In this document: positions 23,821-31,667 of the stretch, one piece after another | Position numbering within the stretch: the stretch's first letter is position 1 | Layout: every line of letters starts with the position of its first letter | DNA from: Ignavibacteriae bacterium HGW-Ignavibacteriae-1 | GTDB lineage: Bacteria > Bacteroidota > Ignavibacteria > Kapaibacteriales > UBA2268 | Assembly: GCA_002839825.1 (NCBI GenBank) | Contig: PGYU01000001.1 | Span: 62,001 to 126,000 of the forward strand | Length of the DNA: 64,000 bases | Reading direction: 5' to 3' | Position numbers and translations under genes: made by a program | The notes under the pieces: model-generated | The model's input: the letters and a program-made list of their open reading frames with translations, nothing else | The model's database searches: none | Told to the model about the DNA's origin: nothing

Positions 23821-25206
23821 TTATTTTTGGATAATTACAAATTCAGTTCGCCGATTTTTTGCTCTTCCTTCGGGAGATAGATTTTCCGCGACAGGCATGT
23901 GCTCTCCAAATCCGCGAGTTAAAATCCGGCGCTCCGATATTCCGGTTTTTGCCAAAGTCTGTTTGACAGCATCGGCACGCGATTGCGAAAGTTTGATATT
24001 ATAATCGGGGTCGCTCGTTTTATTTGTAGAATCAGTATGTCCGCGAACTTCGATTACCATACCCGGATATACATTCATCATGGCTGCTACTCTTTTGATG
24101 GCTTTGTCAGATTCTTTTTTAATTGTTGATTTATCAATATCGAAATAAATATTTAATAAATTGATAAAACCGACATCGGGTAAATTATTGATTAATATAT
24201 TATTATCGATATCTCCTTTTGGAGAGCATAATTTGAGATTTAATTTATGTTCGCCAAAATCAGGTTGCTCAAATTCGATGACATAAAAATATTCGAATCT
24301 TTTGTAAATGTCTTCGAAAACTAATTGGAATTCTTCCTTTTTATAAACATGATGATAAATTCCATTTGTTGCATCGGAATATTTTTTCATGAATCCTTCA
24401 TTAATTCCATATCCGAAATCAATTGCACAGATAATTGTATTGGTCGCCATAGCCTTGGCGACGACCGAATCATAAGCGATTTTGGACGAATTATCAAACC
24501 CATCTGTAAACACGATAACCACTCTTTGCTTGCTATTGTCGGAGCGAGATACCTCATCAATGCCCTGCATGATAGCATCTGAAACCGCAGTCATCCCACC
24601 AAAACCTTGCAATCCGGATTTCTGGAAATTCGATAAAGAAACCGACTGCGAGGATGTCAGAGGTGATTCGACAATCACTTTACTGTCATATTTAATTATC
24701 GAAACAGCGTCATCGGATTTTTTACTCCTCACAAATTCTTCAACTGCTTCCTGGCAAGCAATCGCTCGTTCGACACCCATCGAACCGCTATGGTCAAGCA
24801 CCAATGCTATAGATAGTGGTAATCGGTCTTGTGCAGTACTTTCACGAACGGTGAATTTATCTATTTTTCTGCTCGTTCCGTCGGTAATAATCGTCAGTTC
24901 GCACCAGCGTTTGAGCCATTCTCCGGTTGCCGCACCGCTGAGAAAGGTATTTCCGTTATCTATAAAATGTGTATATAATTTGATTTTATCAGGGTCATGA
25001 ACATCAACTCGAGAAATCATCAGGCTTGGATTGTCCAAATTCGATTGATTTATATTTTTTATATCTTGAATAAATATTGGTTTGTAATCAGCCGGAGGAG
25101 GCAAATCCGGCAAAACGGCTTCCTTCTCTGCATCATAAACTACACAAGATTGAAAAATAAATACTGAAATGGCGAGCAATAAAACAAGTCTATTTAATTT
25201 ATACAT
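23821..25206 (-). CDS. VWA-OmpA lipoprotein
   Basis: A 461-residue protein starting at MYKLNRL (25206); an upstream in-frame ATG at 25266 would spoil the signal. Lipobox is FIFQSC. A von Willebrand A domain spans about 125-310 with MIDAS DHSGSMG, the Thr loop (GGMTAVSDA) and FTDGFDNSS. An OmpA-like peptidoglycan-binding domain lies at about 345-461: NIYFDIDKSTI, VRGHTDSTN, LSQSRADAVKQTL, RGFGEHMPVAEN and GRAKNRRTEF. The protein is therefore anchored to a membrane by lipid and to peptidoglycan by its C-terminus, presenting a VWA adhesion/metal module. It is transcribed after the Pth fusion gene with 43 bases between. Confidence 0.9.
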   Translation of the reverse strand: MYKLNRLVLLLAISVFIFQSCVVYDAEKEAVLPDLPPPADYKPIFIQDIKNINQSNLDNPSLMISRVDVHDPDKIKLYTHFIDNGNTFLSGAATGEWLKRWCELTIITDGTSRKIDKFTVRESTAQDRLPLSIALVLDHSGSMGVERAIACQEAVEEFVRSKKSDDAVSIIKYDSKVIVESPLTSSQSVSLSNFQKSGLQGFGGMTAVSDAIMQGIDEVSRSDNSKQRVVIVFTDGFDNSSKIAYDSVVAKAMATNTIICAIDFGYGINEGFMKKYSDATNGIYHHVYKKEEFQLVFEDIYKRFEYFYVIEFEQPDFGEHKLNLKLCSPKGDIDNNILINNLPDVGFINLLNIYFDIDKSTIKKESDKAIKRVAAMMNVYPGMVIEVRGHTDSTNKTSDPDYNIKLSQSRADAVKQTLAKTGISERRILTRGFGEHMPVAENLSPEGRAKNRRTEFVIIQK

Positions 25207-25249
25207 ATAATCCCTAATTAATAATAATAATAATTTAATTATCAAATTG

Positions 25250-27925
25250 TTATTCAGAAATCCCAAGTGTTTTCAATATAAAAGCATAATCAAAAGCTAT
25301 TTCTTTAAATTTGGAATAACGTCCCGAAGAGCCACCATGCCCCGAATCCATTTCAGTAACCAATAATAATAAATTATTATCAGTTTTGAATTCTTTTAAT
25401 TTCGCATTCCATTTTGCAGGTTCCCAATAATGTACACGCGGGTCATTCAATCCTGCTCTAATTAATATATTCGGATAATCCATTTTCTTGACATTATCAT
25501 ATGGCGAATATGATGAAATATAATCAAAATAATCTTTTTGCTCAGGATTGCCCCATTCGCTATATTCCGCCACTGTCAATGGTATTGTGGCATCAAGCAT
25601 TGTATTCAGCACATCTACAAAAGGCACTATTGCCAGAGCACTTTTGAATAATTCCGGACGTAAATTCAGAACCGCACCAATTAACAAACCACCTGCACTT
25701 CCACCCTTGATTACTAATTTATCAGGACTTGTATATTTTTCATTAATTAAATATTCGGAGCAAGAAATGAAATCCGTAAATGTATTTAATTTTTTCATCA
25801 TTTTCCCATCCAAATACCACTGTTCGCCGTTTTCGCCACCACCGCGAATATGAGCAATAGCTATCACAAAGCCTCGTTCGAGCAAGGATAAATAAGTATG
25901 GGCAAAGCTTGGGTCGTTAGTAATTCCGTATGAGCCGTATCCGACAAGCAATGTGGGATTATTGCCGGATAATTCAAGATTACTCCGATGAACAATTGAA
26001 ATTGGAATCATCGCGCCGTCTTGTGCCTTTGCGAATAATCTTTTCGTTAGATAATCATTTTTATCGTAATTGCCCAGAACGGTAGTTTCTTTTAGCAAAG
26101 TGAGTTGACGCGAACTCATATCATAATCAAAAACAGTTTTTGGAGTAATAAATGAGCTATATGTGAATCGCATTATATCGGAATTGAAATCCGGTAAATC
26201 GTTCGAGTCGCATGAATAAGTCTCATCCGGAAATTGAATATAATGTTGCTCCAAACTCAACATATTATATATTCGGATTTTGCTCAAACCCGCTGACCGC
26301 TCATTTATCACTAAATAATCTTTGTATGGCTCTATATTGGTGATTCGGATATTTTCATCATATGGCATGAAATCAACCCAATTCTCTTTATGAGGCTGGC
26401 TTTTAGGAGTTTTAACAATTTTGAAATTGAGAGCCGCATCATTTGTAACGATGAGATAATCATCCAAATATGATTCTAAATAATATTGCATATTCGGTTC
26501 GCGAGCACGAATTAATTGCGGCATCGTGTCTGCTTCATTTGCAGGAATCACCCAAACTTCAGATTCGTCCTTGCTCATCAATGTTATCAATATTGTTGAT
26601 TTATCCTTAGTTTTATCAATACTCAAAAAATAAGCATTGTCTAATTCATGATAAATTAATTTATCCGTATTTATTGATTCGCCCAAAACATGCTTCCACA
26701 CTTTGTCGGCTTGTTGAATATCATTTAAAGTCGAATAAAATAAAGTTTTGTTATCATTAGCCCACTCAATATTTTCGGAGGTATTTTCAATTTTATCAGG
26801 CAAAATTTCATCCGTATCAATTACTTTAAAATTAATTGAATAAGTTTCGTAACCCTCTGAATCTATTGAAAATGCTGCGATTTCATGATTCGGACTAACT
26901 GCAATCGAACCAATTTGCAAATATTGTTTGCCTTCGGCTAATTGATTATGGTCAAGTATGACTTGCTCGGGGGCGTCCATTGAGCCTTTGCGACGGCAAT
27001 AAATAGGGTATTGCATGCCCTGGACAGTCCTAGAATAATAGTAATAATCATCCCTCTTAACCGGAACGGACAAATCAGTCTCTTGAATTCTGGATAAGAT
27101 TTCATTGTAAATTTTCGCTTGAAGTTCGCTCGTGTCTTTCATCTTTTGTTCGGCGTATTTATTCTCGGCTTTGAGATATTTTATGACTTCAGGGTCGTTT
27201 TTGCGTCTCATCCAGAAGTAATCATCAGTGATTTCAATCCCGTGAACCGTGCTTATGTGCGATACTTTATTAGCAAGAGGGAATGATTTATTATTTGATT
27301 TATCGCTTTTTGCAGAGCTTTGCTTTTTCGTTTTTGAATCAAATTTCTTGGATTGGTGAGCATTCACATCGGACATTGCACGCGCGAATCCGATCTTCAA
27401 GACCATTTCCAATGCTTTGACACCGTCATTAATCATATCATTGACAGTCTCATCTTCATTTGGATAAAAATGTGATAGTACGTAATCCGACATTCCGCCG
27501 GGACCAAAGTCTTTGCCGATTCCGAGCCTTAGTCGGATAAAATTGCTTGCGTTTATATGCTCGATGACCGATGCGATTCCATTATGACCACCATCGCTAC
27601 CCGCAGCTTTGAGGTGAATTCTACCAACTTGAAAATTGTATTCATCTACGCAAATCACAATGTTTTCGGGTGAAATGCAGTATTTATTCAGCATTTTCTT
27701 GACTGCGGTTCCCGAATTGTTCATATAAGTCGTTGGTAAGCAAGTATATACTTCCTGACCTGCATATTTGAATTCTGCAAATTCGCAATCGGGTCCGAAT
27801 TTGAATTCGGACTTGCATTTTGATGTAAAGGATTCTACAACTCGCATTCCGATATTGTGTCGAGTTAATTGGTACTTTGAACCGGGATTGCCTAAACCAA
27901 CGATAAGCCACTTAGTTTTCGTCAT
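25250..27925 (-). CDS. pth: Fusion of peptidyl-tRNA hydrolase and oligopeptidase B-type (S9A) peptidase
   Basis: A single 891-residue chain. Residues 1-190 are a complete bacterial Pth: GLGNPG (N13), RHN (H23), TYMNNSG (N69), CVDEYN (D94) and GGHNG (N115), so every catalytic or tRNA-contact residue is there. A Lys/Ser-rich linker (about 191-215) follows. Residues about 216-891 are a full S9A prolyl oligopeptidase/oligopeptidase B: start PLANKVSHISTVHG and DDYFWMRRKNDPEV, a propeller, HIRGGGENGEQW, catalytic Ser743 (GGSAGG), Asp828 (LNDPRV) and His863 (DSGHGG). No signal peptide, so cytoplasmic. The ATG at 27925 overlaps the rhodanese stop as ATGA. Pth frees tRNA from peptidyl-tRNA; the peptidase cuts short peptides. 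No frameshift or internal ribosome-binding site was noticed. Confidence 0.92.
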   Translation of the reverse strand: MTKTKWLIVGLGNPGSKYQLTRHNIGMRVVESFTSKCKSEFKFGPDCEFAEFKYAGQEVYTCLPTTYMNNSGTAVKKMLNKYCISPENIVICVDEYNFQVGRIHLKAAGSDGGHNGIASVIEHINASNFIRLRLGIGKDFGPGGMSDYVLSHFYPNEDETVNDMINDGVKALEMVLKIGFARAMSDVNAHQSKKFDSKTKKQSSAKSDKSNNKSFPLANKVSHISTVHGIEITDDYFWMRRKNDPEVIKYLKAENKYAEQKMKDTSELQAKIYNEILSRIQETDLSVPVKRDDYYYYSRTVQGMQYPIYCRRKGSMDAPEQVILDHNQLAEGKQYLQIGSIAVSPNHEIAAFSIDSEGYETYSINFKVIDTDEILPDKIENTSENIEWANDNKTLFYSTLNDIQQADKVWKHVLGESINTDKLIYHELDNAYFLSIDKTKDKSTILITLMSKDESEVWVIPANEADTMPQLIRAREPNMQYYLESYLDDYLIVTNDAALNFKIVKTPKSQPHKENWVDFMPYDENIRITNIEPYKDYLVINERSAGLSKIRIYNMLSLEQHYIQFPDETYSCDSNDLPDFNSDIMRFTYSSFITPKTVFDYDMSSRQLTLLKETTVLGNYDKNDYLTKRLFAKAQDGAMIPISIVHRSNLELSGNNPTLLVGYGSYGITNDPSFAHTYLSLLERGFVIAIAHIRGGGENGEQWYLDGKMMKKLNTFTDFISCSEYLINEKYTSPDKLVIKGGSAGGLLIGAVLNLRPELFKSALAIVPFVDVLNTMLDATIPLTVAEYSEWGNPEQKDYFDYISSYSPYDNVKKMDYPNILIRAGLNDPRVHYWEPAKWNAKLKEFKTDNNLLLLVTEMDSGHGGSSGRYSKFKEIAFDYAFILKTLGISE

Positions 27926-28263
27926 TGCTGCGAACGAAAATAAGACGTACTTCCCCCAATTAGCGAATAGACGTTTTTGAAGCCATGCTTGTTCAGTATA
28001 GTAGCAGCGGTTTTGCTGCGAACTCCGAAAGTGCAATACACGACTATTTCATTGTATTCAGGATACTTTGTTGTAATTTCATGAACAAAGGTATCAATTA
28101 TGGATAACGGTATATTTACAGCTCCTTCAATATGATTGCGATGGAATTCCCATTCTTCGCAAACATCAACTAACAAAGGCGGTTCGTCATTTTCCATAAC
28201 GAATTTCAAATCGTCAGCTGTAATTTTTTTGTAAGCTTTCTTTTGCAAAATTTTCTTGTACAC
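27922..28263 (-). CDS. Rhodanese-domain protein
   Basis: A 113-residue single-domain rhodanese. LLVDVCEEWEFHRNHIEGAV is the first CH2 motif region and VVYCTFGVRSKTAATIL holds the active-site Cys with a six-residue loop, as in sulfurtransferases acting on sulfane sulfur. GGSTSYF lies near the C-terminus. It is cytoplasmic. It overlaps the Pth-peptidase start by 4 bases (ATGA), so the two are co-translated. The substrate is unknown. Confidence 0.9.
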   Translation of the reverse strand: MYKKILQKKAYKKITADDLKFVMENDEPPLLVDVCEEWEFHRNHIEGAVNIPLSIIDTFVHEITTKYPEYNEIVVYCTFGVRSKTAATILNKHGFKNVYSLIGGSTSYFRSQQ

Positions 28264-28363: not shown

Positions 28364-28915
28364 TTATGCAAATGATCTTGCAAATAATTCTTCAATAGCT
28401 TTCTTGCCATTGTCTTTAAGTAGTCTGGTACCTGTTCCGGTAAAATGCTCATTAGTGATGACCGGATCGTTGACATTTATCCAATTTTCACGATTCCATT
28501 TGAACCAACGATTTTGTTCTTGGTCAAATACGTAAAGAGGCTTGTTGCAAATTTTGGCAAATTCAGCGCCCCATCCGGTGCCACCTTTTACAGTCTTGTC
28601 ATTTTGGATTTTCCCGATTACGAAAACTTCCTGCCCTTTGTTGATTTGATACCAAATCGTTTGCAAAATCTTACGGAAAAGCTGAGTTTCGGGGTATTTG
28701 CGGTTCATCAAGCGCGAAGCATATGTCATGCTGATATCGCCTTGCTTCAATTCTTCATGATTCAAAATTCTGATTCCGCGAGTACGGGCTATTTCGTGAC
28801 CTTCGAACGAAAAATTCACTTCTTCGATTCCATATTTTTCGGCTATTCTGCCAAACTCTTCTTCAGCACCATTGGCACCACCGCTAAAGAGTATTGTGTT
28901 TTCTACTTTCAACAT
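28364..28915 (-). CDS. SLOG-like Rossmann nucleotide-binding protein
   Basis: A 183-residue cytoplasmic protein. The N-terminus TILFSGGANGAEEEFGRIA resembles the GGAxGAD loop of SLOG/DUF2493-type Rossmann proteins, and GGTGWGAEFAKICNKPLYVFD further on matches the second phosphate-binding GG(T/S)xxGA element. VFVIGKI is a central strand. SLOG proteins bind nucleotides or nucleotide-derived ligands. No partner effector gene is adjacent. The exact family is not certain. Confidence 0.55.
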   Translation of the reverse strand: MLKVENTILFSGGANGAEEEFGRIAEKYGIEEVNFSFEGHEIARTRGIRILNHEELKQGDISMTYASRLMNRKYPETQLFRKILQTIWYQINKGQEVFVIGKIQNDKTVKGGTGWGAEFAKICNKPLYVFDQEQNRWFKWNRENWINVNDPVITNEHFTGTGTRLLKDNGKKAIEELFARSFA

Positions 28916-29060: not shown

Positions 29061-31667
29061 ATGAAAATTATAAACATTTTAGTAGCTTTTGTAGTTGCAT
29101 ACTTGTTGTTTGGCAGTATGGCAGCATTTTCCGCTGATGGCGACACAGTCAAAGTCCGCACAATCGAATTTCAGGACCGCAGAGAGGGATGGTACGAGTT
29201 CCCTTCGATTGATGAGGAATTCCAGAGAATTTTGCTCCATTTTACTCTAAGATGCCCGCCCGGTAAGCCATGTGGCGAGTGGGACTACATTTCGAATGTT
29301 TTCGTTAGTCATTATTTTGCTCCTTCATTCCGAGTCAACGGCGGCTCACCTGCTACATACTCATTCGTGAAAGATACGGCTTGGAGCTATGAGAGAATTC
29401 AGGTTGGTGGCGTATGGGAAACCAAAAAAACTGCCAAAAATTCAACAGTGCTGTATTTTTACGATATTGATTCCGAAACACCGACTAAGGCAGTAGATTC
29501 GATGATTGTTTGGAATTTGTATTATGATAATTATGAATGGGATGCAAGCGGCAAAGCAACTGATTCGACTCTTGTTGAGCCTGATTCCGTAGTTACATTG
29601 GCTAAGAAACGTGTTTATTTCAATGACAATGTCACAATTAGAGAGCGTTTTGAATTGATGAGATTTATCACACCATACGGCAATGGCTTAAACTTGGGTG
29701 CCGGTTTCACTTGGACTTTAGACGTTAGCGATTTGAAAGATATGATTGCCGGCAAAGTGCACCTGTCTTCGCCGAATGGTGGTTGGGGAGACCCTTATGA
29801 CCAAAATGACCAAGAGGATTTGCAACTTACTTTCAGCTTCATCGAGGGCACTCCTCCGAGAAATATAATCAACAGGCATACATATTTAAATTATTTAAGT
29901 GCAGTTTATGACGGAAATTTTGAATCGAAAGTTCCGGCTTTTGACTATACATTTTCCGGCGAGGAGAAGGGAGCAAAGTTAATCGTAATCCAAACCGGAC
30001 ACGGATTCGGTGGAAATAGTGATAACTGTGCGGAATTTTGCCGCAAAGAGGCTTTCGTCAAAGTGAACAATGCTCAGACTCATTCGCAATGGATTTGGCG
30101 TGATTGTGGCATAATTCCGGTATTCCCACAAGGTGGCACTTGGATTATTGACCGCACGAATTGGTGTCCGGGAGCAGAAGTTGTGCCTCACGAATACGAT
30201 ATCACTCCTTACATAACGTCGGGCAGCACAGCTTCAATTGATTATGATATGGAATTCTATAATACTCCTTGGAATCCCGGCAGTAACCAAGCACCTGTTT
30301 GGGTTTTATCATCATACCTTGTGACTTACGATGACTACAATTTTGAAACTGACGCCAGATTGGAGGGTATTATTGCCCCAACAAACGAACAAATGCACTT
30401 GCGTCAAAACCCGATTACAACAAATCCCATAATTCAAATTAAAAATACAGGTAAAAACCCAATTTCGACAATTAAAATCAAATATGGCAACAACCCTGCT
30501 AATTTAGCTGAATACACTCATGAATTTGTAGCATCGGAGCTATTAAATTTCGGCGAAGTAGCCACACTATATTTGCCTTATAATAACTGGCTGCATGATG
30601 GTTCACCTAATTTATTTTTTGCCGAAATTACTGAAGTCAACGGTAGCGCTGATGACTACGCATCGAACAATATCGGTAAAGCATTTTTCACGAAAAATAC
30701 AAATATTTATCCGGGCAAATTCGTTGTTGATTTAACTACGAATAATTCTGAAGTTTTGGGAATTAGCTCACCATATAATTGGGCAATTTATGATGCAAAT
30801 TTCAACATTGTGAGCGAAAGAGCAACAACGCAAAACAGCACACGATACCTTGATACAGTCAATTTACCCGAAGGCAATTATAGATTTATTATCCGCAATC
30901 CTGCCGGCTACGGGCTCGGATTCTGGTTTTATAACAGCCAATTAGGTTTGAATAACGGAGCTTTGAAATTTTCGCGTGATGGTGCCACAATTCGTTCATT
31001 TGCTGCTGATTTCGGAGATTTTATAATTCACGAATTCACAGTTGCAAATAAGCCGACAGTTATTTCTTCAATAATTGGCGATGCCATTGAATTTGCATCA
31101 GTTGGCGTCGGCGAAAGCAAAATTATTGATTTAATATTAAAGCCCGAAAATAATGCAGGTGTAATTATAAACGATTTAACCTTATTTTTTGCGGACACCA
31201 AAAAATTCGAAATAAGCGAGATAATCGGCAACGGTGCTGCTTTCCCATATAATTTAAAATTAGGCGATTCGCTAATTATCAAAATTAAATTCACACCGCA
31301 ATCAGTTGGTCCCAAGTCCGGTCAAATGCGTATTTCGACAAATGACCAATTCAAGTCAAGCTTAGTATATAATTTGACGGGCTCAGGAACCGATGGCACA
31401 GGCGTAGAATCTATGCAAACGCCTTCATTCAGTATTACTCCAAATCCGGCAGATGACTTCTTAACAATCCAAGCTAAACCTTCCGAAGGTTTGGAACCTT
31501 CGGAAGGTTCCAAAATTCAGATTTATGATGTGTTGGGAGTTGAAGTTTTGACGGTAGAGACACGGCATGCCGTGTCTCTACAAAAAATTGATGTGTCAAC
31601 CCTTCCCATTGGTGTCTATATCCTAAAAATTGGCAATTATACACAAAAGTTTATGGTGGTGCGATGA
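29061..31667 (+). CDS. PNGase F-like secreted protein with ASH-type domain and T9SS sorting domain
   Basis: An 868-residue protein with a signal peptide (1-25). Residues about 35-250 resemble the N-terminal domain of peptide-N-glycosidase F (RTIEFQDRREGWYEFPS, PPGKPCGEWDYISNVFV). Residues about 290-440 resemble its C-terminal domain (TGHGFGGNSDNCAEFC, FPQGGTWIIDRTNWCPG). PNGase F removes N-linked glycans from glycoproteins; the assignment of activity is inference. An immunoglobulin-like ASH/choice-of-anchor segment spans about 660-780. The C-terminus (SITPNPADDFLTIQ to GVYILKIGNYTQKFMVVR) is a T9SS type A sorting domain. Two short palindromic elements (31476-31511 and 31554-31581) lie inside this last domain and are translated. 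Confidence 0.82.
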   Translation: MKIINILVAFVVAYLLFGSMAAFSADGDTVKVRTIEFQDRREGWYEFPSIDEEFQRILLHFTLRCPPGKPCGEWDYISNVFVSHYFAPSFRVNGGSPATYSFVKDTAWSYERIQVGGVWETKKTAKNSTVLYFYDIDSETPTKAVDSMIVWNLYYDNYEWDASGKATDSTLVEPDSVVTLAKKRVYFNDNVTIRERFELMRFITPYGNGLNLGAGFTWTLDVSDLKDMIAGKVHLSSPNGGWGDPYDQNDQEDLQLTFSFIEGTPPRNIINRHTYLNYLSAVYDGNFESKVPAFDYTFSGEEKGAKLIVIQTGHGFGGNSDNCAEFCRKEAFVKVNNAQTHSQWIWRDCGIIPVFPQGGTWIIDRTNWCPGAEVVPHEYDITPYITSGSTASIDYDMEFYNTPWNPGSNQAPVWVLSSYLVTYDDYNFETDARLEGIIAPTNEQMHLRQNPITTNPIIQIKNTGKNPISTIKIKYGNNPANLAEYTHEFVASELLNFGEVATLYLPYNNWLHDGSPNLFFAEITEVNGSADDYASNNIGKAFFTKNTNIYPGKFVVDLTTNNSEVLGISSPYNWAIYDANFNIVSERATTQNSTRYLDTVNLPEGNYRFIIRNPAGYGLGFWFYNSQLGLNNGALKFSRDGATIRSFAADFGDFIIHEFTVANKPTVISSIIGDAIEFASVGVGESKIIDLILKPENNAGVIINDLTLFFADTKKFEISEIIGNGAAFPYNLKLGDSLIIKIKFTPQSVGPKSGQMRISTNDQFKSSLVYNLTGSGTDGTGVESMQTPSFSITPNPADDFLTIQAKPSEGLEPSEGSKIQIYDVLGVEVLTVETRHAVSLQKIDVSTLPIGVYILKIGNYTQKFMVVR
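31476..31511. repeat. Palindromic repeat family E inside a coding region
   Basis: AACCTTCCGAAGGTT, spacer TGG, AACCTTCGGAAGGTT: each half is a palindrome and the halves are reverse complements. Translated as KPSEGLEPSEGSK. The same 33-base core with spacer TCG is at 52438-52470. Confidence 0.9.
31554..31581. repeat. Perfect 28-base palindrome inside a coding region
   Basis: GTAGAGACACGGCA followed by its exact reverse complement, translated as VETRHAVSLQ within the T9SS domain. From memory it resembles short dispersed palindromes known from cyanobacteria and Bacteroidota. Confidence 0.9.

Follow-up and report, generated by a model that had tools for sequence, protein, structure and literature searches.

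One gene of the window, which is the whole stretch of 64,000 nucleotides that was analysed, joins a complete peptidyl-tRNA hydrolase (Pth) to an oligopeptidase B (OpdB)-type peptidase. The gene lies at 25250..27925 on the minus strand and consists of an uninterrupted frame of 891 codons and a stop, with an identical frame in two congeners. It is an intact, genus-wide and selected single-frame fusion of the sole Pth with the peptidase, and represents a new domain architecture joining two known enzyme families. The best reading of the sequence is that the product would be an obligate cytosolic bifunctional enzyme in which both activities are retained.

Composition of the fusion protein

The fusion protein contains three Pfam domains. 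Pept_tRNA_hydro occupies residues 7-188 and covers the whole 183-position profile (E 1e-54), Peptidase_S9_N occupies residues 218-613 (E 1e-101), and Peptidase_S9 occupies residues 673-888 (E 2e-66). The earlier note had described a complete Pth and a complete S9A peptidase in one 891-codon frame, separated by a Lys/Ser-rich linker. This description holds, as the frame has no interruption, all of the named active-site residues are there, and the linker is found at residues 189-215. A look for this architecture in related genomes, as the note had proposed, finds it in the two other species of the genus that were compared.

The Pth domain comprises residues 1-188 (27362..27925, minus strand), as placed by Pfam, structure matches and residue alignment. 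It passes the TIGR00447 pth cut-off of NCBIfam and aligns with solved Pth structures. The residues N13, H23, N69, D94 and N115, which the earlier note had listed, are all present and are invariant across the aligned Pths of the family. Like Pth1 (PF01195, TIGR00447), it has the complete domain and the active-site residues, and it is the only Pth of its genome; in contrast, its C-terminus carries a linker and a peptidase of 676 residues. The whole genome (3.23 Mb, 98.8% complete) has a single PF01195 match, and a search for PTH2 in the genomes of the genus found none. RF-1-family matches number two per genome, or three in G001, with frames of 355-389 aa, which as expected would fit RF1 and RF2 and not the short ArfB. 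Because Pth is essential in bacteria generally and this is the sole Pth of the genome, the fused Pth is probably active. The alignment behind the AlphaFold model holds peptidase rows only and none for Pth, so the model is uninformative on this half. Elsewhere in the family, G006 has two full-length Pth matches, at C71:38727-39272 and C53:7246-7797.

The peptidase half consists of an S9A N-terminal beta-propeller region, residues 216-613 (26087..27280, minus strand), and an S9 catalytic alpha/beta-hydrolase domain, residues 673-888 (25262..25909, minus strand). Both are placed by Pfam, the catalytic domain also by alignment. AlphaFold predicts a confident, full two-domain peptidase from residue 213 on, with most blocks above 90, and the predicted propeller has pLDDT values above 90 for most of its length. 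The half matches Serratia OpdB 7ywp end to end (E 1e-170). Ser743 (25697-25699), Asp828 (25442-25444) and His863 (25337-25339), all on the minus strand, align with the catalytic Ser, Asp and His of that enzyme, which confirms the triad that had been assigned to them. The oligopeptidase B model PRK10115 of NCBIfam is matched over positions 3-673 of 686, with 590 bits against an equivalog cut-off of 1313. The strict equivalog name is therefore barred, and the claim is limited to an "OpdB-type S9A peptidase". Identity is 44-51% to OpdB-type relatives versus about 29% to the POP-type enzymes of the family, and by sequence the half groups with OpdB and not with prolyl oligopeptidase.

The specificity site of OpdB is known from Salmonella, where Glu576 is the P1 determinant and Glu576 and Glu578 are the S1-site acids (PMC3778648). 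The predicted site in the fusion comprises Glu787 and Ser789 (25559..25567, minus strand), with the correspondence taken from a sequence motif. On this correspondence Glu787 is the kept equivalent of Glu576, and Ser789 stands at the Glu578 position, which is Asp or Glu in 37 of 42 relatives. The fused peptidase thus shares the full-length two-domain architecture, the triad and, by the motif correspondence, the P1 glutamate with the OpdBs of Serratia proteamaculans (7ywp) and Salmonella/E. coli (PtrB). In contrast, it lacks a start codon of its own, has an added N-terminal Pth, has Ser789 as its second S1-site residue, and sits on a long stem in the OpdB tree.

The linker (27281..27361, minus strand), delimited by alignment of three species, is hydrophilic and rich in Lys and Ser, with the sequence AHQSKKFDSKTKKQSSAKSDKSNNKSF in the window. 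It resembles the variable hydrophilic tails, of 2-34 residues, of standalone Pths of the family. Eight lysines, including two KK pairs, are unchanged in all three species, and six other positions vary; the chance that none of the six variable positions hits a lysine is about 0.08. All three species lack an in-frame ATG, GTG or TTG between residues 188 and 235. The nearest start-type codon common to all three is ATG184, within the conserved Pth RAM motif that is also present in standalone Pths. An internal start yielding a separate peptidase is rejected, since the linker has no candidate codon. The lack of an evident start codon for the peptidase indicates that one chain is probably made, and the two halves are, judging from sequence, probably both active and cytosolic within it.

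Conservation, gene neighbourhood and distribution

The genus comparison comprises three species, namely the genome of the window, G001 and G002. All three have the same fusion, and their proteins align without gaps over 891 residues, with 93% and 85% identity of the two congeners to the protein of the window. The dN/dS values among the three species are 0.02-0.07 for the Pth part, 0.15-0.19 for the linker and 0.04-0.18 for the S9A parts, at a dS of about 0.3-1.4. The fusion is under purifying selection and fixed in the genus. A stop or indel near 27340 in relatives, for which the earlier note had asked to look, is absent, as both congeners have the same ungapped 891-codon frame. Assembly error or a recent frameshift is rejected on the same grounds. 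Because three separately assembled species carry the fusion in the same frame, an assembly or sequencing artefact is so unlikely as to be negligible. The propeller part (26087-27280, minus strand) has a dS of about 1.4 between the species of the window and G001, compared with about 0.5-0.6 for the Pth and catalytic domains, and a mosaic or recombination is possible there.

A single-domain rhodanese gene lies directly upstream (27922..28263, minus strand), and its stop overlaps the ATG of the fusion in the sequence ATGA (27922-27925). The overlap is kept in both congeners, thus in 3/3 species, and translation of the rhodanese and pth is probably coupled. In G015, which belongs to another genus, a rhodanese gene (L073:2147-2491) overlaps the start of a standalone pth from about position 2491 (plus strand), and there is no peptidase. 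Because the pair occurs without the peptidase in G015, an adjoining rhodanese is not confined to the fusion. The suggestion that the rhodanese is a co-translated partner therefore stands as regards its overlap with the start of the fusion in three species, but not as a feature particular to the fusion.

The order of PNGase F-like secreted protein, SLOG-like gene, rhodanese and fusion is conserved in the genus. The gene at 29061-31667 (plus strand) has a PNGase F C-terminal domain match, a weak N-terminal domain match and a type IX secretion sorting tail. The gene at 28364-28915 (minus strand) encodes a conserved protein of 183 aa with sub-threshold similarity to the cpYpsA/YspA SLOG families, and adjoins the rhodanese and the fusion in three species. 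Directly downstream of the fusion, a gene for a VWA and OmpA domain protein (23821-25266, minus strand) is also present in G001 and is absent from this place in G002.

The Pth-S9A frame occurs in 3/123 genomes of the order, with all Pth matches listed, and all three belong to this genus; it was sought in the other 120 and not found. The class-wide Pth survey covers the best 150 or so matches, and more Pth fusions may occur in the class. OpdB-like matches are present in 146 of the 395 genomes sampled across the phylum. Among the best 150 or so of these matches listed, only two frames exceed 820 aa, those of the window (932 aa from stop to stop) and of G492. The 909-aa frame of G492 is rejected as a second Pth-S9A fusion, its extra part being a GC-rich spurious frame without similarity to Pth, and G134 and G553 are rejected because no Pth is seen in them. 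The GTDB collection supplied 80 named relatives of OpdB, and none of them has a Pth in frame or within flanks of up to 3.5 kb. A search of the open-access literature, which includes few subscription journals, found no paper linking Pth to oligopeptidase B or to prolyl oligopeptidase, and none linking peptidyl-tRNA drop-off to an oligopeptidase. This agrees with the earlier note, which knew of no described Pth-S9 fusion, and the Pth-OpdB fusion is apparently undescribed.

A different Pth fusion is present in G087, a member of the same family from another genus. Its 608-aa frame (L068:1974-3800, plus strand) comprises Pth (16-198) and an iron-type alcohol dehydrogenase (237-606), joined via a Lys-rich stretch. 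In G025, a congener of G087, pth is not fused and a different gene lies downstream. The two fusions are alike in the family of bacteria and in having an unrelated enzyme on the Pth tail via a Lys-rich stretch. They differ in the partner enzyme, and the G087 case is seen in one genome only, where it may be an assembly error, and still has Met codons where the dehydrogenase probably once began. The independent fusion of an alcohol dehydrogenase suggests that the C-terminal tail of Pth may be a permissive fusion site. Since the dehydrogenase has no evident pathway link to Pth, the G087 case, if taken at face value, makes the Pth-OpdB fusion weigh less as evidence of coupling, and the G087 protein serves as a natural control against the over-reading of gene fusions.

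Origin of the fused peptidase

In a quick-search tree, the fused peptidases make up a single clade (support 100) within an OpdB group, on a long stem of 1.26. Their neighbours are Zixibacterial, Fidelibacterota, Saprospiraceae and cyanobacterial proteins, among which the deep forks are open. The family's own OpdBs (G005, G018 and G029) are split from the fused clade by supported branches and sit in a mostly Bacteroidota group with support 100. This clustering with the OpdBs of other phyla, and not with those of the family, suggests horizontal acquisition, and acquisition followed by fast change would be the simplest reading. The Pth half has no settled position within its family in the tree, which would allow vertical descent.

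The tree neighbours of the fused peptidase are a mix of signal-bearing and signal-less proteins, and its ancestral location is uncertain. A descent of the peptidase from the family's own OpdBs, which bear signals, with the fusion shifting it into the cytosol, was also considered. In this form the proposal is rejected, since the tree gives the peptidase another position and its nearest relatives differ in export state. As G015 has the rhodanese-pth pair without the peptidase, the peptidase was probably added behind a pre-existing pair. An OpdB gene of non-family ancestry would have landed there, and in-frame joining to the hydrophilic tail of Pth would have cost it its own start codon. The fusion would then have become fixed in the genus and been held by purifying selection.

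Function of the two-headed protein

A single-chain cytosolic enzyme with two heads, Pth and an OpdB-type peptidase, is the probable product. Its N-terminal Pth, being the only one, would perform the general peptidyl-tRNA hydrolysis of the cell, and its C-terminal peptidase would, as in its family, cut short peptides after basic residues. With a flexible linker between them, the two heads most likely act independently. The tether would ensure that both enzymes are present in equal numbers and in one compartment, the cytosol, and may favour clearance of the peptides released by Pth. A narrower form of this explanation, with both heads active, holds that a stop codon was lost between neighbours, that the result was harmless because extensions are tolerated at the Pth C-terminus, and that the fusion was kept since the two enzymes are useful separately, which makes the tether irrelevant. 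The independent fusion in G087 without an obvious pathway link, the variable length of Pth tails in the family, and the confinement of Pth-OpdB to one genus are in line with such a fortuitous event. In contrast, the fusion is ungapped through three species at a synonymous divergence of about 0.3-1.4, the start codon of the peptidase is gone, and the linker is constrained. A fortuitous origin may well be correct, with the balance slightly against it.

The two-headed enzyme could also form a unit of rescue and clearance, in which the tethered OpdB destroys the peptides that Pth releases from drop-off peptidyl-tRNA. Such functional coupling, which the earlier note had proposed, is plausible. Action of both enzymes on short peptides is established biochemistry, the P1 glutamate is kept, and the chain is single and obligate. 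OpdB cuts after basic residues in peptides of up to about 30 residues, according to PMC3827171, so that the tethered enzyme could cut some, but not most, of the released peptides. With cleavage only after Lys or Arg, the majority would not be degradable. As the Pth-alcohol dehydrogenase fusion shows, Pth can be fused to a partner without coupling being implied. The domains appear to be flexibly linked with no fixed interface, the S1 site has one of its two acidic positions changed (S789), and no support was found in the open-access literature. Coupling is thus a tentative and rather doubtful explanation. A precursor that the peptidase cuts in its Lys-rich linker, freeing an ordinary Pth and an ordinary OpdB, is quite improbable. 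Cleavage after basic residues is typical of the OpdB family, and the eight lysines with their two KK pairs are unchanged in three species. However, lysine conservation is weak evidence of processing because chance alone gives it in about 8% of cases, and OpdB-type gates usually keep out large proteins.

Pth is an essential housekeeping enzyme and almost always a separate protein, and here a genus has its only Pth joined permanently to a peptidase. To our knowledge, the fate of the peptides freed from dropped-off peptidyl-tRNA has been little studied. The natural fusion makes a link between peptide release and breakdown directly testable. If such coupling is true, it would be the first instance in which one and the same molecule releases the products of ribosome drop-off and destroys them.
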